Assembly: GCA_017540085.1 (NCBI GenBank)
Contig: JAFYBQ010000034.1
Span: 1 to 59,235 of the forward strand
Direction of reading: 5' to 3'
Length of the DNA: 59,235 nt
DNA from: Synergistaceae bacterium
Lineage (GTDB): Bacteria > Synergistota > Synergistia > Synergistales > Aminobacteriaceae
Under the pieces are notes generated by a model. The model saw only the letters and a program-made list of their open reading frames with translations. It did not search any database and had not been told where the DNA came from. The first letter of the stretch is position 1; every line of letters begins with the position of its first letter. Made by a program: the position numbers and the translations under genes. This document shows positions 44,634 through 55,139 of the stretch, one piece after another.

Positions 44634-46484
44634 CTACATTTCCGCGAGTACCCACAAAAATCCGTAGGGCTGAAGCGTTATTGTCCCGTCAGGATTTCCC
44701 GTGAACTTTTCGCCCGTAATCATGTCGCGATAGTCGAACATTCCGCCGAGAGTCTCATTTGTCCCGAAAGTCTGAGATTTCCCGCTGAAGTTGAAGAACG
44801 CCAGCATTTTCTCTTTCTTGGTCTTTGCGCCCTCATAGCGTCCGATTCCGAGAACCTGATTATTTCCCGTCTCAATCAGCCACGTGTCAGCCTCATTCGC
44901 GAAAACCGAGTGCGAGTCCCTCAGTGTTACGAGCTGACGCACAGCCCGGAAGATTTTTCCCTGCGGTGTGCCGGGGTCATTGCGCTTTTCTGCGTCCTCC
45001 CAATGAAACGCCCCGCGGTGTAAATATCTGCTGTCGGCGGCCTTGTCGGGGTCATCGCTCTGATGATAGCTGTAATCGTTGAGCTGTCCGATTTCGTCTC
45101 CGCTGTATAGCACGGGTATTCCGCTCTGTGTCAGAAGGAAGGCATGAAGCATAATGTCGAGATTGACGGCTGAGTCCTTGTCGCCTGATTCGAGTCCGCA
45201 AAGTGAAGCCGTTGTACCGCACATTCTAGCATCGCCGAGTTCGGGAGCATCGTTGTACGTCTCGCCCTTTGACGGAGACCCGGCGAAATCCCCCTTGAAG
45301 TAGTCATTGAGATATTTCTTGTGGGCGACCTCATCAATTCCGAACGTCCGCAGAAAATCATAATCGAGTCCCCAGCCTATATCATCGTGGCACCGCAGAT
45401 AGTTCAGGAACACATACTGTTTCGGGAGGGCAAAGACGCTCTCTAACTGGTGCTTCATTAGGCGGGTATCCTGAGTCGCAACTGTGTGCCATGTGCTTGC
45501 CATTGTCGTAACGTTGTAGAGCATGTTGCATTCGGGCTTCTCGACTGTGCCGAAATAGGGTACGACTTTTGACGGCTCCATTACGACCTCGCCAAGAAGG
45601 AGCGTTCCGGGGCAGACGATTTCAGCGGCCATTCTCATTATGCGGACGAGGGTATGAACCTGCGGGAGATTCCTGCAATTTGTGCCGAGAGTCTTCCAGA
45701 TGTACGGAACAGCGTCAAGCCTGATGATGTCGATTCCCTGATTGCACAGGTAGAGCATATTTTCTGTCATGTCGTTGAACACAACGGGGTTGCGGTAATT
45801 CAAATCCCACTGGTACGGGTAGAATGTTGTCATTACGACTTTGCCGGACTCGCTGTCATACGTGAAATTTCCGGGTGCTGTTGTCGGGAAAACTTCCGGC
45901 AAATTCTGCTCAAACTGGCGTGGGATTTCCCAGTTGTCGAAAAAGAAATATCTGTCCTGAAACTCTTTCTCGCCCTTCTTGGCTCTCATCGCCCACTCGT
46001 GATCCTCGCTTGTGTGGTTCATGACGAAATCCAAGCATACGCTGATTCCGCGTGAATGGCATTCCCTCGACAGGTCAGCAAGGTCATCCATTGTACCCAA
46101 ATCCGGCCTGACTTTTCGGAAGTCTGAGACCGCGTAGCCTCCATCGCTCCTGCCTTTAGGGGTGTCAAGAAGCGGCATGAGGTGCAAATATGTTACTCCG
46201 CATTCCTGAATATAATTGAGGTGAGACTTAATGCCCTGCAAATTTCCGGCGAAGCACTCCGTGTACATCATCATTCCGAGAATGTCATTGCCCGCGTACC
46301 AGTCCGGGACAACGGCGCGCGCGTCATCTAAATCGTGCTTGAGGTAGTCGGGGCGGTTATTCCAAGATTTTCGGAGCATGTAGCAGAAGTAATCGAATGC
46401 CTGCTTGTCTTGGCCGTATAACTCGTAGTAAAGCCATTTCAGCTCGTCATAGTGAAAATCGAGCCTGCTGTCAAAATCACTCAT
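44634..46484 (-). CDS. GH13 amylosucrase-family enzyme
   Basis: About 616 residues from the ATG at 46484; a GTG at 46496 sits too close to its Shine-Dalgarno. The order of motifs follows amylosucrase (GH13_4): TYLHLMPLLDTPKGRSDGGYAVSD, VMNHTSEDHEWA, nucleophile Asp in IIRLDAVPYIWK, acid/base Glu in LLLGEVVMEP and the transition-state Asp in LRCHDDIGWG. A helical N-terminal domain (1-80) and C-terminal beta domain complete it. Amylosucrases make an alpha-1,4-glucan from sucrose; close relatives are sucrose hydrolases. There is no signal peptide, so the enzyme is cytoplasmic. No sugar transporter or glycogen gene is adjacent, so the substrate supply is unclear. Confidence 0.87.
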   Translation of the reverse strand: MSDFDSRLDFHYDELKWLYYELYGQDKQAFDYFCYMLRKSWNNRPDYLKHDLDDARAVVPDWYAGNDILGMMMYTECFAGNLQGIKSHLNYIQECGVTYLHLMPLLDTPKGRSDGGYAVSDFRKVRPDLGTMDDLADLSRECHSRGISVCLDFVMNHTSEDHEWAMRAKKGEKEFQDRYFFFDNWEIPRQFEQNLPEVFPTTAPGNFTYDSESGKVVMTTFYPYQWDLNYRNPVVFNDMTENMLYLCNQGIDIIRLDAVPYIWKTLGTNCRNLPQVHTLVRIMRMAAEIVCPGTLLLGEVVMEPSKVVPYFGTVEKPECNMLYNVTTMASTWHTVATQDTRLMKHQLESVFALPKQYVFLNYLRCHDDIGWGLDYDFLRTFGIDEVAHKKYLNDYFKGDFAGSPSKGETYNDAPELGDARMCGTTASLCGLESGDKDSAVNLDIMLHAFLLTQSGIPVLYSGDEIGQLNDYSYHQSDDPDKAADSRYLHRGAFHWEDAEKRNDPGTPQGKIFRAVRQLVTLRDSHSVFANEADTWLIETGNNQVLGIGRYEGAKTKKEKMLAFFNFSGKSQTFGTNETLGGMFDYRDMITGEKFTGNPDGTITLQPYGFLWVLAEM

Positions 46485-46559
46485 TGCAGAAAACACATCC
46501 TTTGCATAAAAATTTTTGGGAATTGGAGATATTATAGCCTATGCGGGAAAATTTCAGGC

Positions 46560-46617: not shown

Positions 46618-49221
46618 TTACCTCTTGAGGTTGACGACTTCCTCTAATATCTGGTCGCTGACTGTAACGACTCTCGTGTTCGCCTGGAAGCCTCTCTGAG
46701 CGATTATCAGATGGGTAAACTCCTCTGTTAGGTCAACGTTCGACATTTCAACGTACTGACCCATGATAGTGCCTTTTCCGTTTGAGCCTGCGCCGTCAAT
46801 GTTGGCTGTTCCTGAGTTTACGGAAGCCTGGAACATAGTGTTGCCGACCTTTTCGAGTCCCTGCTCATTCGCGAAAGTTGCCAGCGCGACGCGGTAAAGC
46901 GGAATGCTGACTCCGTTGCTGTATGAGCCTGTGATTGTTCCGTTTGCGGCGACCGAGTAATTTTTCAGAATGCCCATCGTGTAGCCGTCCTGATAAACGG
47001 GCTTTGTTGTTGTCTCTGAGGCGAACTGAGTAACGCCTAGAAGAGCGTCCCCGCTTCCGCCGAAATTGAGCCTTACTGTGCTGTTGGGCTGTCCGTTGAG
47101 GCTGAACGGGAGCGTGATTTCGACTTCTGCGTTGTCTGTGCTTCTGAGTGCGCCGTCGGCGATGGCGTTGTTGATTCTTCCTGAGCCGTCAAACTCGATC
47201 TCGCCTGTTCTGGGTTCGGGCATAACGTTTGACATGATTTCTTTTCCGTTCTCGTCAGTCTCGACTATGAACGCTTCCCATCTCCAGCGGTTTTCGGTGA
47301 TTTTCTTGTACGTAACTTCGAGGGTATGCTCTTTTCCGTCATCGTCATATATTGTGGCCTTTGTAGCGTGGTAACCGCCCTGTGAAGCCGCGCCCAATGT
47401 AGTCCATGAGCCGAGCTGATCTTTCGGACTTGGCGAGTCAACGTTCTGTGCAACCATGAATTTCAGCGTGTCATTCTTTGAGCTTGCATTGCTGGCTGTT
47501 GATGCGGCTATCTGGAAGTTAGGATCGCCGTTAGTGTCAGGCAGTATACGGAATCCCAGAGGCGCGTTGCCGTTATCGGTCTCGTTCCAGTCCACACGGT
47601 CAAATGAGCCGTCAGGGTTGAAGAATACGTTTGCTTCAATCTTGTGCAGTCCCTTGAGTACAGCAGTAGCTCCCGTACCTACAGTACCTTCCTGAATCTG
47701 TGTTGCTGTTCCTGCTGCTACTGCGGTGGCCTGTGCGTTGGCGTAGCCGTAGTACCAGAGAGTCATCTTTGATACAGTTTTGCCCAAGTCTGAAGGTGAA
47801 GCGGCGGTCATATTGCTTTCTTCAAATTCTGCTATGAAGTCGTACTCAAGCGGCACTCTCTCCGTAGTGCTTCCTGCTGGTGCGCTTGCTGTTGCGATAG
47901 AAGGTGCGCCGGACAGAGTGAAATTCGAGTAGTCCATCTTGCCCTTCACATCATAATTGAAGACCGTATCACTGACTTTGAGATGATGTACCTGTGTAGC
48001 AACTGTACCTGTTGTGTCAACAAGATCTGCCGCGAGTCCCGCTGTTGTGCCTGATACTTCTTCGTTATTCGCATTCATCAAGGACAGCGTGCGAATCTGC
48101 ATTGTCCCGGTTGTGTCGTTGTAGTCCACCGTGTAATACTTCGGGGGAGTCTGGCCGGGAAATTTGTACACGGGCTTGTAGTAATTGTTGACGGTAGTAT
48201 TTATGTCATTCTCTGTCAGTGTTAATGTCCCTGATGTTCTGTTGGTTATTCTTGACAGTGTAGTACCGTTAGTGCTTGTAACCAAGTTGTTATTCTCATC
48301 AAGCCAGCCTATAAAGCCGTCGCTGCCGCTCCCTGTTGCTGTTGTAAGCTTTGTGGTTAAGGGTGCGGTGGTGGCAGCATTCCATATTATTGTCGGAAGG
48401 CTAAGTTCAGGCTTGCCCGTTGTGCTGTTTATGCCGGTCATGTCGAACGTCATCTTAGTAGTTTCTCCGCCGTTAGCTAGGGCGAAATCAAGATAGTTGA
48501 TTCCGTATGCCGAGTTGTTTGCATTATTCAGCGTTGCGTCAAAACTTGTCGAGAAGCTCATATCATACTCAACGCCGTTCATCGGAACTTTTGCCATTCC
48601 TTCATTCAGCCCGTTAGCACCCGCAACAGCATTGAACGGAAGATCCGCGAAACCGTAAGACAGGAAATTTTTCTGCCTGCTGTCAAGGTTGCACTGGTAA
48701 TCGACTCTAGTCGTGGCTTTGGCTTCCATCTTCTGCCCAAGCGGTATATTTATCGTGGAAAGCTCTGCGGCCTGCTGGAATCCCTCTAGGGCTGTCTCCT
48801 CCATCTTGTAGCCCTGGAGCTTGTAGCCTGAGCCTGACTGAACGAGGTCAGAATTTCCGTCAAGAGTGCAGGCACCCGAACGGCTGAACATCTGGTTGGT
48901 GCCGTCAGAGTACACAAAGAACCCGCGCTCCTGAATCATCATGTCGGAGGCATTGCCGGTGTATGAGCTTGAACCCTGAGTGTGTATCGTCTCAATTGCC
49001 GCGACGCTAACGCCGAGTCCGACCTGGGCGGGGTTGATTCCGCCTCTGTTGCCGTCCGCGCTTGAAGCGTACTTGTTGGCCTGATACATGAGATCGGCGA
49101 AAAGCGTGTTGTCCTTCTTGAAGCCTGTTGTGTTTGCGTTTGATATGTTGTTGCCTGTTACGTCGAGCATGGTCTGGTGAGCGCGAACACCCGTTACCGC
49201 TGTCATCAATGATCTTAACAT
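46618..49221 (-). CDS. flgE: Flagellar hook protein FlgE (long form)
   Basis: An 867-residue protein, about twice the size of enterobacterial FlgE. The N-terminal D0 region (MLRSLMTAVTGVRAHQTMLDVTGNNISNANTTGFK) and C-terminal D0 (EEFTHLIIAQRGFQANTRVVTVSDQILEEVV) are canonical and build the hook core. The extra 400-450 residues lie in the middle, rich in Asn, Thr and Gly, and probably form outer D2/D3-type domains exposed on the hook. There is no signal peptide, as expected for type III export. It follows flgD at the end of the operon. A terminator follows. Confidence 0.95.
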   Translation of the reverse strand: MLRSLMTAVTGVRAHQTMLDVTGNNISNANTTGFKKDNTLFADLMYQANKYASSADGNRGGINPAQVGLGVSVAAIETIHTQGSSSYTGNASDMMIQERGFFVYSDGTNQMFSRSGACTLDGNSDLVQSGSGYKLQGYKMEETALEGFQQAAELSTINIPLGQKMEAKATTRVDYQCNLDSRQKNFLSYGFADLPFNAVAGANGLNEGMAKVPMNGVEYDMSFSTSFDATLNNANNSAYGINYLDFALANGGETTKMTFDMTGINSTTGKPELSLPTIIWNAATTAPLTTKLTTATGSGSDGFIGWLDENNNLVTSTNGTTLSRITNRTSGTLTLTENDINTTVNNYYKPVYKFPGQTPPKYYTVDYNDTTGTMQIRTLSLMNANNEEVSGTTAGLAADLVDTTGTVATQVHHLKVSDTVFNYDVKGKMDYSNFTLSGAPSIATASAPAGSTTERVPLEYDFIAEFEESNMTAASPSDLGKTVSKMTLWYYGYANAQATAVAAGTATQIQEGTVGTGATAVLKGLHKIEANVFFNPDGSFDRVDWNETDNGNAPLGFRILPDTNGDPNFQIAASTASNASSKNDTLKFMVAQNVDSPSPKDQLGSWTTLGAASQGGYHATKATIYDDDGKEHTLEVTYKKITENRWRWEAFIVETDENGKEIMSNVMPEPRTGEIEFDGSGRINNAIADGALRSTDNAEVEITLPFSLNGQPNSTVRLNFGGSGDALLGVTQFASETTTKPVYQDGYTMGILKNYSVAANGTITGSYSNGVSIPLYRVALATFANEQGLEKVGNTMFQASVNSGTANIDGAGSNGKGTIMGQYVEMSNVDLTEEFTHLIIAQRGFQANTRVVTVSDQILEEVVNLKR

Positions 49222-49325: not shown

Positions 49326-49787
49326 CTAGCTTATTACCGAAACGCCTTCAACTTTCTCAAGCGGCACTTCGCCTTCTGTCGTGTCAAGTATTGTGCCTTC
49401 TTTCGGGTCAAACCAGACATGATTCACGACTGCTACTTTCTGAGTTGCCTCTTCCCCTTCGCCTGAAGTGAAAGCTACTGCCTTCCCGATGTACTGAACC
49501 GCGCTGAATTTGTTTGCGTCCGATATTGTGGTGAGCGTCTTGTTCATGTTCTGCATCTGCTCAAGGCTTGAGAATGTAGCCATCTGCGAGATAAATTCCC
49601 TGTCCTCCATAGGATTCAAGGGATCCTGATTCGACAATTCGGCGATTAACAGCTTGAGGAAAGCGTCTTTTCCGAGAGTGTCATTTGTGGCTGTTGTTAC
49701 GGCTGATGTGCTTTGCGTGCTTGTTGTTGCCTGCGTTGTGTTTATGTTTGCTAGGTTAGTGTAGCTGTTTACGTCTGTTACTGGCAT
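49326..49787 (-). CDS. flgD: Flagellar hook capping protein FlgD (short form)
   Basis: A 153-residue protein. After a Thr/Ser-rich N-terminus comes the conserved FlgD segment LGKDAFLKLLIAELSNQDPLNPMEDREFISQMATFSSLEQMQN. The C-terminus (VWFDPKEGTILDTTEGEVPLEKVEGVSVI) is short. The FLG_D Ig and Tudor-like domains of enterobacterial FlgD (231 residues) are absent, as in Bacillus-type FlgD. FlgD caps the growing hook and directs FlgE assembly. It lies between fliK and flgE. Confidence 0.92.
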   Translation of the reverse strand: MPVTDVNSYTNLANINTTQATTSTQSTSAVTTATNDTLGKDAFLKLLIAELSNQDPLNPMEDREFISQMATFSSLEQMQNMNKTLTTISDANKFSAVQYIGKAVAFTSGEGEEATQKVAVVNHVWFDPKEGTILDTTEGEVPLEKVEGVSVIS

Positions 49788-49801: not shown

Positions 49802-52800
49802 TCATGCTATCCAGTATAGCAGTCCTTCTTCAAGGTCAGCCCTGAAATTTTCTGTGTCATCGTCATTATCTGACGGGGTGTAACTGTAATAATCCCTCTG
49901 GTTCTGACCGCCTGAGTCCTGACCCTGCCGGCTGCTGTCCTGCTGAACGTCAACCGTAAACTCTGACACCTGAACACCCTGCTGGGCTAAATTGTCCCTT
50001 AACTGTGTGAATTGTTCCTGCACTATTTGTCGGATTTGCTCACTTGCTACTTTAACGGACGCTTCAACGCCTGAAGTTGTAGATGTAAGCTCAACGGAAA
50101 TCCGTCCGAGCGCGGGCGGGTCAACGATGATATTTGCCTTCCTCACGTTGTCTGCGCGTATGAATCTCACGACGTTTACGATGCCATTGCGGAGAGTCCT
50201 TCCCTGAGACTGAACGCCGTTAGCCTCGTATGTGTCAGTCCTGAGACTAAGCGGGCTGGTATTCACGCGTGGAGATGATAAACGTTTTGCGCGTGTTACG
50301 GTGTCAAAGAACGACTGAAAATCGCTGAGGACTTCTGCCTTTCGTGAGTCAATTCGCGGCTCATTCTGCGAATCATTGCGCGGTGCTGTGCGTGAAGCTC
50401 TTGCGGGTGATACGCGGACTCTTTCGGGTGAAATTGCGCCGTCAGTCTGTGAGTCATTGCCGGGATTCTGCGATGGCTGGCGGGATTCTGACTCTGTGCT
50501 TTCCTCATGGCCGGAATGATTCTGAGTGCGTGAAATTTTCGGCTGTGAGTCTGTCTCGGTGGCCTGCGTAATTTCGGGCTGTGAGTCGTGCGTCATGGCC
50601 TGAGTCTTTCTGCGAGGTGTCCGGGAGATTTTCGGGGACTCAGTGCTTTCGGGGACTGTTTTGGGTGCTGACTGTGTTACGGTTTCGTGAACAGTCTGCG
50701 CTGTAGTCGCGGGCATTTCGCGTGTTACGGTTTCGGGTGTGGACTCGGAAATGATTTCGGGAGCGTCCTTAGTGTTTACGGGGATTTCCGGCGCGGTGAT
50801 GATTATATGTTCGGGAGTCTCCGTGATTGTGCGGACGGTGCGAGGCTCTGACGGTGAATCGGTCTGCGCGGGCTGAATGTCATTTGCGGGCTGTGCGTTT
50901 TGAGTCGGCTGAACCTGAGCGAATCCGGCCATGACTGTAACAGCGTCCGTAATTCCGGGGAACTCTGCGCGTGTCTTTTCGGGAGTCTCGGCCTCGGAAT
51001 CCTCGCGGGAGTCGGCGCGTTCGTGCGTAACTTTGCGGGGCTGTGCTGGCTCTGCGTCATTCCTGCGGGGCTGAACGGGGGCGGGAGTCTCGGCGGGGGC
51101 TTCAGGGCGTGGGCTGTCGGTCTCCCTGCCAGTGTCAGAAGCCGGAATCCCGTAATCCTCCGTATCATTTGCGGGGACTGTCTGAGGCTGTGAGTCATCT
51201 GCGGGAATTTCGCGCTGTATGGGCGTGTCATTTTTGGGCGACTGAGGAATTGCCCGCTGTGTTTCGGGAGCGTCATTGCGAGTGTCAACAGTTTGTGATT
51301 TCTGCGTGTTACGTGTTGACGGCGGAATGTCGGTATCTTCCTGCTGTAACGGCTCATGACTCGGCGCGTCATTTTCGGGAGTCCCGTCAATTTCTGGCGA
51401 CTCAGGAATTACCCGCTGTGCTTTTGGTGCGTCATTCTGTGCGCCAACAGTCTGCGATTTCGGCGTGTCGTGTTTTGACGGTGGAATGTCGGTATCTTCC
51501 CGCTGTGATGACTCATGAATGGGCGCGTCATTTTCGGGAGTCCCGTCAATTTCCGGCGACTCAGGAATTACCCGCTGTGTTTCGGGAGCGTCATTGCGAG
51601 TGTCAACAGTCTGCGATTTCGGCGTGTCCTGTCTTGACGGCGGAATGTCTGTAGCCTCCTGCTGTGATGACTCATGAATAGGAGCGACATTTTCGGGAGT
51701 CCTGTTAATTTCTGGCGACTCAGGAATTACCCGCTGTGATTTCGGCGCGTAATTCTGTGCGTCAACAGTCTGCGATTTCGGCGTGTCCTGTCTTGACGGC
51801 GGAATGTCTGTATCTTCCGGCTGTGATGACTCGTGAATAGGCGCGTCATTTTCGGGAGTCTCGTCAATTTTGGGCGACTGAGGAATTACCCGCTGTGATT
51901 TTGGCGCGTCATTGTGTGCGTCAACAGTCTGCGATTTCGGCGTGTCGTGTTTTGACGGTGGAATGTCGGTATCTTCCCGCTGTGATGACTCATGAATGGG
52001 CGCGTCATTTCCGGGAGTCCCGTCAATTTCCGGCGACTGAGGAATTATCCGCTGTGATTTCGGCGCGTAATTCTGTGCGTCAACAGTCTGCGGTTTCGGC
52101 GTGTCATTTGCTGACGGCTGAATGTCGGTATTTTCCCGCTGTAACGGCTCATGATTGAGTGCGTCATTTCCGGGAGTCCCGTCAATTTCTGGCGACTGAG
52201 GAATTACCCGCTGTGTTTCGGGCGCGTCATTCTGTGCGTCAACAGTCTGCGGTTTTGGCGTGTCCTGTCTTGACAGCGGAATGTCGGTATCTTCCTGCTG
52301 TGATGACTCGTGAATAGGCGCGTCATTTTCGGGAGTGTCAACAGCTTCCGGCGACTCAGGAATTACCCGCTGTGCTTTCGGTGCGTCATTGTGTGCGTCA
52401 ACAGTCTGCGATTTCGGCGTGTCATGCCTTGACGGCTGAATATTGGTATCTTCTTGCTGTAACGGCTCATGAATAGGCGCGTCATTTTCGGGAGTCCCGT
52501 CAAATTTCGGCGACTCAGGAATTATCCGCTGTGATTTCGGCGCGTCATTGTGTGCGTCAACAGTCTGCGATTTCGGCGTGTCATTTGCTGACGGCTGAAT
52601 ATTGGTATCTTCCTGCTGTAACGGCTCATGACTCGGCGCGTCATTTCCTGGAGTCTCATCAATTTTCGGCGAGTGAGAAATTCCCCGCTGAGTTTCGGGC
52701 GCGTCATTAGGAGCGTCAACAGGCTGTGAGTCCTGCGTGTCTTGCGGCTTATCCGTGATGATTGGCTGCGTTTTCTGCGGAATATTAGTCCCTTCTGCCT

Positions 52801-53383
52801 CATTATTCGTAACTTCCTGCCGTAAAGCCCCGTCATTATGCGAGACAAAATCCGGCCTCACTGATTCGGGCGGCTCATTCCCGGAAAATCTCACGTTATC
52901 CGCCATATTCCCGGCCATGTCAGAATTGCGCGAAATCTCCGGCTCAACAGCGGTAACTCCCTCGTCAAAATCATTCTGCGGGATAATTTCCGCTGTCCTC
53001 CTTGCGGGATTGTCCGTTATTCGCCTGCTGTCAGCAAAAAGATTCCGCCATGAGTCAGCCTTTGGCGAACGTGATTCCGTATTCGCATGTGTGTACGGCT
53101 CTGTACTGGCCTGCGTGTTTGTTCCGTCGTCAGCAAGAAATCTCACACCGCTGAACGCTGACGGCCTGCCCTGCGTTAATGTCATAGCCTGCTGTGTGTT
53201 GTTGGGATTGATGTCTGTAACTTGCTCCTGCCCTGCGCTTTCACGGGCTGTATATTCCGTCATGAGCGCGTCAAATGCTCCTGCGTCCTGGCCTGTGAGT
53301 CCCTGCTGTGTGCTGTCTGTATTGCCTCCCGGCATGAGCAGATTTATTTGCGCCTGAAGAAATGACCATATTCCTGCCGGCAT
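49802..53383 (-). CDS. fliK: Giant flagellar hook-length control protein FliK
   Basis: A 1193-residue protein, against about 400-600 in most species. The C-terminal Flg_hook domain (about 1060-1160; PALGRISVELTSTTSGVEASVKV, EQFTQLRDNLAQQGVQVSEFTVDV) is the switch that touches FlhB to stop hook export. The rest is Pro-, Gln-, Thr-, Asp- and Glu-rich, without hydrophobic core, as expected for an extended ruler. The middle holds nine 53-residue repeats (see repeat entry). The N-terminus begins MPAGIWSFLQAQINLLMPGG. It sits between motE/ylxF and flgD, the conserved order. Ruler theory predicts that added residues lengthen the hook. Confidence 0.9.
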   Translation of the reverse strand: MPAGIWSFLQAQINLLMPGGNTDSTQQGLTGQDAGAFDALMTEYTARESAGQEQVTDINPNNTQQAMTLTQGRPSAFSGVRFLADDGTNTQASTEPYTHANTESRSPKADSWRNLFADSRRITDNPARRTAEIIPQNDFDEGVTAVEPEISRNSDMAGNMADNVRFSGNEPPESVRPDFVSHNDGALRQEVTNNEAEGTNIPQKTQPIITDKPQDTQDSQPVDAPNDAPETQRGISHSPKIDETPGNDAPSHEPLQQEDTNIQPSANDTPKSQTVDAHNDAPKSQRIIPESPKFDGTPENDAPIHEPLQQEDTNIQPSRHDTPKSQTVDAHNDAPKAQRVIPESPEAVDTPENDAPIHESSQQEDTDIPLSRQDTPKPQTVDAQNDAPETQRVIPQSPEIDGTPGNDALNHEPLQRENTDIQPSANDTPKPQTVDAQNYAPKSQRIIPQSPEIDGTPGNDAPIHESSQREDTDIPPSKHDTPKSQTVDAHNDAPKSQRVIPQSPKIDETPENDAPIHESSQPEDTDIPPSRQDTPKSQTVDAQNYAPKSQRVIPESPEINRTPENVAPIHESSQQEATDIPPSRQDTPKSQTVDTRNDAPETQRVIPESPEIDGTPENDAPIHESSQREDTDIPPSKHDTPKSQTVGAQNDAPKAQRVIPESPEIDGTPENDAPSHEPLQQEDTDIPPSTRNTQKSQTVDTRNDAPETQRAIPQSPKNDTPIQREIPADDSQPQTVPANDTEDYGIPASDTGRETDSPRPEAPAETPAPVQPRRNDAEPAQPRKVTHERADSREDSEAETPEKTRAEFPGITDAVTVMAGFAQVQPTQNAQPANDIQPAQTDSPSEPRTVRTITETPEHIIITAPEIPVNTKDAPEIISESTPETVTREMPATTAQTVHETVTQSAPKTVPESTESPKISRTPRRKTQAMTHDSQPEITQATETDSQPKISRTQNHSGHEESTESESRQPSQNPGNDSQTDGAISPERVRVSPARASRTAPRNDSQNEPRIDSRKAEVLSDFQSFFDTVTRAKRLSSPRVNTSPLSLRTDTYEANGVQSQGRTLRNGIVNVVRFIRADNVRKANIIVDPPALGRISVELTSTTSGVEASVKVASEQIRQIVQEQFTQLRDNLAQQGVQVSEFTVDVQQDSSRQGQDSGGQNQRDYYSYTPSDNDDDTENFRADLEEGLLYWIA
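51230..52720 (-). repeat. Nine 159-bp tandem repeats plus one partial copy inside fliK
   Basis: Each unit encodes 53 residues with the pattern VDAxNDAPxxQRxIPxSPxxDxTPxNDAPxHExxQxEDT and then DIxPSxxDTPKxQT. The landmark GTCAAC (plus strand) falls at 51284 and 52715, exactly nine periods of 159 bp, so no indel has accumulated between copies. Units 1-9 cover 51290-52720; a tenth, truncated unit lies at about 51230-51289. Copies differ by substitutions, so the array is not brand-new. Confidence 0.92.
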
Positions 53384-53407: not shown

Positions 53408-54115
53408 TTATCGCTGCTGGGGATGTGCCATAAGTTCGGTTATCCTTGCTGCTTTTGTCGGCTTAATTTTGCCCATAATTGAGGCTCTTGCGTCATTGGG
53501 AAGCCTCATCAGCAATTCTACTGCCATAGCATCGCGCAATTGTTCAACGACTGCCGCGGCGTTTCTCGCTGACATGTCCTGATATGTTCGGGCTACTTGG
53601 TTCATTAATTCCTGCTCACGCTCGGTAGGGGTGTTCGCGTTAGCTCCGGCGGCTTGGGTTGCTTCCTGCGCTCTGAGCCTGCGCTGCCTTCTTGCCACAT
53701 CACGCGATAATTCAACGAGGGCTAATTCTCTCTTCTCGTAGACTTCCATGCGGGCAATGTCGCGGCTTTCCATTGAGCGTTCGAGAGCGTCAAGCCTTCT
53801 CTGCCACTGCTCAAGCTCTACGGCTCTGCGCTCCTCAACCGTAAGCGCGTAAAACTCCGGCACCTGGAAAAACTCCGCAAGTCTCGGCCCGAAATATGGC
53901 ACTCTCGGTATAGTCTCCCAGAAAAGCGGCCTGCCGTCCCAAATTCCGCTCAGGTGCATTCCGACAGCAGTCCCAAGACCAAGCAACAACATCCACAGGA
54001 AAAACGTAAATTTTCCCATGCCCTTTTTCTTTTTCTTCTTTTTGACGACTGGCGCGGGGGCAGCAGCTTGTTCAGCCGGGGGATTAGCTCCTGCCGCGGG
54101 GCGTTCTTCTGCCAT
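53408..54115 (-). CDS. MotE/YlxF-like flagellar membrane protein
   Basis: A 235-residue protein with a Pro/Ala-rich N-terminus, a run of lysines (about 25-31), one membrane segment (FTFFLWMLLLGLGTAVGMHL, 35-55), a long charged coiled coil (95-150) and a C-terminal MgtE-N-like helical domain (VEQLRDAMAVELLMRLPNDARASIMGKIKPTKAARITELM). This layout is that of MotE/YlxF, encoded between fliJ and fliK in Bacillus and relatives. MotE-type proteins act as chaperone or stabiliser of MotB or motor parts. It starts two bases after the transglycosylase stop. Confidence 0.8.
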   Translation of the reverse strand: MAEERPAAGANPPAEQAAAPAPVVKKKKKKKGMGKFTFFLWMLLLGLGTAVGMHLSGIWDGRPLFWETIPRVPYFGPRLAEFFQVPEFYALTVEERRAVELEQWQRRLDALERSMESRDIARMEVYEKRELALVELSRDVARRQRRLRAQEATQAAGANANTPTEREQELMNQVARTYQDMSARNAAAVVEQLRDAMAVELLMRLPNDARASIMGKIKPTKAARITELMAHPQQR

Positions 54116-54116
54116 G

Positions 54117-54686
54117 TTAGCCGACCTCCCTTAATCTGCGGTATATTGACATGATATTACGCACGTAGCGTTTTGACACTTCCGGGATATTCCCGCTGTC
54201 GACTCTGGCCGGCCCTGCGTTGTAGGCGGCTAATGCTTTCTCGATGTCGCCCCGGTATTTGTCCGTCAAGTCAGAAATATATCTTGTCCCGCCGTCAATA
54301 TTCTGCGCGGGGTCAAAAGGGTCATCAACTCCCAGCATTGCGGCTGTGCGAGGCATGAGCTGCATTAGTCCCTGTGCGCCCTTGTTCGACACAGCGTCAG
54401 TCGTCCACCCTGACTCAACCTGAATCATTGCGCGTATTAATTCTTGGTCAACGTTATATTTCTCGGCGCATTCGGTGATTATGTCTTTGAGTTCGTCATA
54501 ATTCGTTTTGCCGGAAATGTTGCTTGTACGTTTTGCGACTCTCTTTGCCCGCTCAACGTCATTCAGAACGTCAACAAACCTGCTTTTGAGTGGCTGAGTC
54601 TGCTGGTACATGTCCGGCATAAGCTGCCTGTTAATTTCGTCTATGCGTGTCAATACTCTTGATATGTTCGTCATGTTAGGCCCCAT
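54117..54686 (-). CDS. Lytic transglycosylase (SLT domain) of the flagellar operon
   Basis: A 189-residue protein from the ATG at 54686, with AAAGGGGA upstream inside fliJ. Residues 70-185 are an SLT (C-terminal Slt70-like) domain: the catalytic Glu in MIQVESGWTTDAVSNKGAQGLMQLMPRTAAMLGV, then NIDGGTRYISDL and ALAAYNAGPARVD. It would open peptidoglycan for the flagellar rod. The N-terminal 65 residues are helical, with no signal peptide, so it may be exported by the flagellar type III system, as is FlgJ. It lies between fliJ and motE/ylxF. Confidence 0.88.
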   Translation of the reverse strand: MGPNMTNISRVLTRIDEINRQLMPDMYQQTQPLKSRFVDVLNDVERAKRVAKRTSNISGKTNYDELKDIITECAEKYNVDQELIRAMIQVESGWTTDAVSNKGAQGLMQLMPRTAAMLGVDDPFDPAQNIDGGTRYISDLTDKYRGDIEKALAAYNAGPARVDSGNIPEVSKRYVRNIMSIYRRLREVG

Positions 54687-54689
54687 GTG

Positions 54690-55139
54690 TCAATTGTCCC
54701 CTTTCCGTGAATACTGCATTGTTGTAACGTCATCAAGCTCATTCTGCTCAATGCCAAGCTGTTCCTGCATGTCGGCTTCTTTGAGGTGATCTATGTATGT
54801 CTCCATTATCCTGACATCTTTATGACGCTCAACGAGTCTGGCTTCAGTATCGGCGATTCGAGTCCTGACTTCGGCGAGTGAGGTTTGACCGCGGGCAATG
54901 TCAGTGTTTATTGCGTCTATGAACTGCCGCTGAAACCATAAATCTGTGGCTGAGACGGCCTGAGTCCCGGCCCGGCTGAAGTCGGAGATTGCCTGCTTCT
55001 TTTCGCCCTCAAGCTGTGTGATATGGGCTATGGCTTCGCGCTCCTCGCTTCTTTCGGCGGCTAAAATTGCCTGCTCATTACGGCGGCTGTCCTCGCGGAT
55101 TTTGAGTATGCGGTTGAACCGGGCTATTCTCTCGTGCAT
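54690..55139 (-). CDS. fliJ: Flagellar export protein FliJ
   Basis: A 149-residue, almost fully helical coiled-coil protein (FNRILKIREDSRRNEQAILAAERSEEREAI; then WFQRQFIDAINTDI). This is the FliJ fold: the stalk that sits in the FliI hexamer and works with FlhA. Its length and place after fliI (with two inserted genes) fit. It ends three bases before the transglycosylase start. Sequence conservation in FliJ is low, so the call rests on size, coiled coil and context. Confidence 0.85.
   Translation of the reverse strand: MHERIARFNRILKIREDSRRNEQAILAAERSEEREAIAHITQLEGEKKQAISDFSRAGTQAVSATDLWFQRQFIDAINTDIARGQTSLAEVRTRIADTEARLVERHKDVRIMETYIDHLKEADMQEQLGIEQNELDDVTTMQYSRKGDN

Follow-up and report, generated by a model that had tools for sequence, protein, structure and literature searches.

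The stretch of DNA considered here (the window) comprises positions 1 to 59,235 of a contig from a rumen Synergistaceae bacterium, and it carries a flagellar operon. The order of genes, all on the minus strand, is fliJ (54690..55139; PF02050, E 1e-10), a lytic-transglycosylase-like gene (54117..54686; an ORF whose motif was judged by eye), an MgtE_N-domain gene lying upstream of fliK (53408..54115; PF03448, E 8.5e-6), fliK itself (49802..53383), flgD, encoding the hook cap (49326..49787; PF03963, E 3.5e-27), and flgE, encoding the 867-aa hook protein (46618..49221; PF07559, PF06429 and PF00460). The neighbours of fliK are also present in relatives. Within the genus, FlgE is 75-97% conserved over residues 1-190 and 600-867 but only 39-62% over residues 190-600, where identity to the otherwise nearest relative is just 45%; this middle part, close to the variable FliK, is a hypervariable, exposed hook domain that may have been exchanged. 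A TreS-like (trehalose synthase-like) gene encoding 620 aa (44634-46496) lies directly behind the hook genes; it is 80-93% conserved and found near the hook genes in relatives as well. The contig starts with four exact copies of ACTCAGG (positions 1-28).

FliK, the flagellar hook-length control protein, is 1193 aa long in the window. An earlier note on this DNA had called it FliK, and the name is borne out by a C-terminal Flg_hook domain (PF02120, E 2.6e-14; 53.2 bits at residues 1078-1151 against a Pfam cut-off of 29.8) and by flgD and flgE alongside; the note's interval, 51230-52720, did not reveal that the gene is on the minus strand and reaches far past both of its ends. The Flg_hook (T3S4-type) domain (49928..50152, minus strand) holds most of the invariant alignment columns and, together with the hook-gene neighbours and a Pro-rich linker that is predicted to be disordered, places the protein among the type III secretion substrate-specificity-switch (T3S4) proteins. 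The N-terminal region (residues 1-150; 52934..53383, minus strand) has short conserved helices at residues 4-13 and 36-45, and its G35 and F37 are invariant in the FliK alignment (A1). In Salmonella FliK, a ruler part at the N-terminus is followed by a Pro-rich linker and an FlhB-binding C-domain (PMC6972891), and by analogy with it residues 1-150 are presumed to serve export and hook binding. The Pro-rich linker precedes the conserved C-terminal domain and contains a tandem array; the linker behind the array (residues 717-1000; 50382..51235, minus strand) is Pro/Thr/Glu-rich in composition and free of tandem repeats. Pro makes up 15% of the array and 13% of the linker behind it, and aromatic residues are almost absent from the array. 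A second protein with a weak Flg_hook domain, of ~370 aa and near-constant length (contig C30:23763-24005 of G000; locus L002), recurs in most of the Synergistaceae genomes searched.

The array occupies 51237..52741 on the minus strand (FliK residues ~215-716). Tandem Repeats Finder (TRF) gives it a period of 159, 9.5 copies, 86% matches, 0% indels and a score of 2015, and an ungapped repeat search finds nine copies, each spaced by exactly 159 bp. Identity at a lag of 53 residues over positions 201-730 is 0.72, compared with 0.085 on average and 0.13 at most in 1000 residue shuffles. The nine 53-residue units that the earlier note described, with exact 159-bp spacing and substitutions only, are thus really there, although a matrix of unit-to-unit identities describes the layout better as eight close inner units (51353..52624; 81-93% mutual nucleotide identity, indel-free) flanked by two diverged edge copies, N-terminal at 52625..52783 (64-70% identical to the inner units) and C-terminal at 51194..51352 (69-75%), all on the minus strand; taken together, the edge copies have 58-75% nucleotide identity. 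The repeats are tandem, in frame and lodged between functional ends, as in rulers of the YscP type. A dispersed mobile element was considered as the source of the array and rejected: when the genome was searched, array DNA was confined to fliK apart from one 30-bp match.

Since this genome is in 42 contigs, it is likely to be a short-read assembly, and one has to ask whether the copies are false or miscounted, an artefact of the metagenome bin. We regard this as very improbable. The reading frame is open throughout, each unit is marked by its own substitutions, and comparable FliK arrays occur in closed genomes of the phylum. The usual read length is 150 bp and the longest exact repeat within the array is 89 bp, so that the order of the diverged units should be correct; a run of identical units may nevertheless have been collapsed.

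The history of the array is best read against G011 (a rumen Synergistaceae MAG; locus L037), the relative that most operon genes place nearest to the window and that is 91-97% identical in amino acid sequence in fliI, fliJ and neighbours. Its FliK, of 1047 aa, resembles that of the window in having a homologous motif, HEP.Q...D.PKSQ.VI..SPK.D.P, at the same place in 10 or 11 units, and a fresh origin of the window's repeats was rejected on that ground. In contrast to the invariant 53 residues of the window, the G011 units are 34-41 aa long and mostly 34/35 (34, 35, 40 and 41 are seen); the long form of the unit is common to all the window's units, and most of its extra residues are missing from all of those in G011. 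Mean dS among the window's units (0.24) is far below that separating the window species from G011 in seven neighbouring genes or domains (0.64-0.96), so that the array must have been rebuilt, by amplification or homogenisation, since the two lineages split. The exact phase is therefore a sign of recent amplification, with no requirement of a ruler behind it, and the note's "phase-perfect" spacing is no design feature, given the homologous G011 units of 34, 35, 40 and 41 residues. Site patterns among the units are also mosaic: of the 190 informative site pairs, 83 are incompatible, and incompatibility is rarer between close sites (P ~0.014), which points to exchange between units. That the inner units resemble one another more closely than they do the edge copies is what unequal exchange is expected to produce, and exact runs of up to 52 nt common to neighbouring units make a whole-unit event possible in this array too.

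Whole in-frame units have been gained or lost in the FliK of relatives. Two closed Synergistota genomes of one genus in another family (G095 and G099), 99% identical over an 8-kb test stretch, have fliK genes of 4536 nt (1511 aa) and 4170 nt (1389 aa), respectively, and these genes are the same but for a single in-frame segment of 366 nt; a 31-nt sequence is repeated exactly at the break. On one side the flanks of fliK differ at 9 of 7051 nt and on the other 3740 nt are identical. These FliK proteins resemble that of the window in having a tandem array between conserved ends, and the change of unit number is seen directly in them; they differ in that their units are Ala/Pro/Thr-rich, ~98-123 aa long and unrelated in sequence to those of the window. 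In another pair of close relatives (G101 and G108), the ends of FliK are near-identical and the arrays different. The in-frame exchange of units that the earlier note had proposed accordingly has direct backing in relatives, as well as in the turnover of the array relative to G011; within the window species itself, unit number may change in the same way.

The near-clonal pair, whose fliK genes differ by a single unit and are the same elsewhere, so that unit change has outpaced point substitution there, invites comparison with contingency loci: unit number would change often in a population, and hook-length variants would be selected, as a form of phase variation. Contingency loci have near-identical short repeats that change fast and usually act as frame-based on/off switches. 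The window's units are 159 bp long, 81-93% alike and in frame. Changes in their number would preserve the frame, so that an on/off switch is absent, and the divergence of units by 7-19%, with a longest exact repeat of 89 bp, should slow exchange. A contingency locus is, for these reasons, an improbable description of the array, and the earlier note's "built-in, adjustable" ruler, if understood as an adaptive switch, goes unsupported, because units that differ by 7-19% are unlike typical phase-variable repeats.

Of the 43 genomes of the genus, 41 gave a FliK match (records with a related FlgE are bins of Synergistaceae from rumen and gut, some bearing the label Fretibacterium). Complete FliK proteins of the genus fall into a short group (n=19; 483-598 aa, mean 550, CV 5%) and a long group (n=11; 699-1214 aa, mean 949, CV 22%). 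A tree of concatenated conserved operon genes places the long proteins to one side of a branch supported at 100/100, although the forks on that side are weak. (A gene tree of FlgE was dropped in its favour, because the hypervariable middle of FlgE makes that tree misleading inside the long clade.) In the rest of the family, FliK frames reach 705 aa at most. Repeat periods among the long proteins of the genus are 53 aa (the window), 34/35, 51 and 42, 34, 47 and ~113-114 aa, and some of these proteins have no clear repeat. In other families of the phylum, genomes that are closed or nearly so encode FliK proteins of 1511, 1389, 1380, 911 and 805 aa, each with large repeats of its own, and one of 648 aa with 46-aa repeats. 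The tendency to repeat is conserved, and the repeat unit itself is not. In the gene for one long FliK (G040; L034 5777-9418), a 30-nt stretch that includes the palindrome CTCGCTTGCGAG is present in three exact copies, two of them within an exact 51-aa duplication. The stretch was not found outside fliK in that genome, and a mobile element was rejected as an explanation of this palindrome-like insert.

What such a block does can be read in two main ways. The reading that we think probable is that the array is a disordered tether, expanded within an otherwise normal FliK and changed in length by recombination between units, and that it lengthens the hook. By analogy, the FliK of the window species would be exported, bind FlhB and control hook length. 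During hook growth, exported FliK would engage the hook or its cap with its N-terminal part, and its C-terminal domain would then meet FlhB and switch export to filament proteins; a Pro-rich repeat block of ~500 residues would lengthen the chain between these two ends, while recombination of neighbouring units would add, remove and homogenise 159-bp units with the frame intact. We infer that the array lengthens the tether from its Pro and aromatic composition and from the absence of predicted structure. An AlphaFold2 model of the whole protein leaves the array without structure, which is weak evidence because the model is poor overall (mean pLDDT 39.7); a profile search of solved structures gave just a weak, meaningless match. 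The effect on the hook is argued from Salmonella, in which FliK variants of 363-785 aa yield hooks measuring 42-135 nm, a slope of 0.2 nm per residue (PMC6126814). On that scale each unit would be worth ~10 nm (10.6 nm) of hook, and up to ~20 nm if fully extended. Arithmetic extrapolation to 1193 aa gives a hook of ~213 nm, a figure far outside the tested range and based on a slope that came from helical inserts, the window's block being Pro-rich.

The other reading makes the block a length-neutral linker: a disordered spacer under weak constraint, which grows and contracts through recombinational drift and which, past some length, is compact or ignored, so that other parts of FliK or timing set the hook. 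Much in the sequences is in keeping with it. FliK lengths are much more scattered in the long clade (CV 22%, n=11) than outside it (CV 5%, n=19), which is odd for a tightly used ruler; dN/dS of the units is 0.51, compared with 0.03-0.14 for neighbouring genes and the FliK C-terminus; variation is near-equal over codon positions (16/15/19); and unit sequence and period are different in each relative. In Salmonella, moreover, long hooks impair swimming (PMC6126814), which, together with the wide spread of FliK length in close species, makes drift of a neutral linker a serious rival; adding 40 residues to the Salmonella FliK linker makes switching worse (PMC6972891). Against it, inserts in Salmonella FliK lengthen the hook, and inserts and natural repeats in YscP lengthen the needle (PMC6126814, PMC3469391). 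The frame and composition of the array have also been maintained, which implies that the block is under some selection. On balance, we consider the length-neutral linker rather unlikely, and continue to favour the tether that lengthens the hook. For the long clade as a whole, the choice is between rapid divergence of hook length and long disordered linkers that have ceased to determine it.

Models of the hook-length ruler rest chiefly on engineered variants of FliK and YscP. The phylum offers a natural series of FliK proteins from ~480 to 1510 residues, including the near-clonal pair one unit apart, that bears on how a ruler scales when disordered chain is added and, if it does scale, on the tolerance of long hooks. 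Our broader proposal, put forward with somewhat less than even confidence, is that in one rumen Synergistota clade, and in at least two other families of the phylum, FliK is a ruler built of repeats that evolves by whole units, so that close species have hooks of ~115-215 nm, or else that these FliK proteins escape the ruler law by way of an extended disordered tether; either outcome, if true, would be new for the flagellum.

The idea of a repeat-adjusted ruler is not itself new, because repeat variation in YscP is already known. In this needle ruler of the Yersinia injectisome, natural strains differ in how many in-frame tandem repeats of 14, 25 and 46 aa they carry, and needle length is linearly correlated with the size of YscP (PMC3469391). 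What appears to be new is repeat-number variation in the flagellar FliK rather than in YscP; in the open-access literature no relevant report of repeats in FliK was found. YscP and the FliK of the window belong to the same functional class of secreted rulers and have in-frame tandem repeats in common. They differ in that YscP serves an injectisome, is 452-538 aa long, has a few repeats and works in helical form, whereas FliK serves a flagellum and at 1193 aa has about ten Pro-rich units of 53 aa. Salmonella FliK (405 aa) is like that of the window in its C-terminal Flg_hook domain, its N-terminal part and its Pro-rich disordered linker, but that linker is ~60 aa long and repeat-free, in contrast to the ~850 residues between the conserved ends of the window's protein, and the inserts engineered into it are helical pieces of YscP, whereas the units of the window are Pro-rich.
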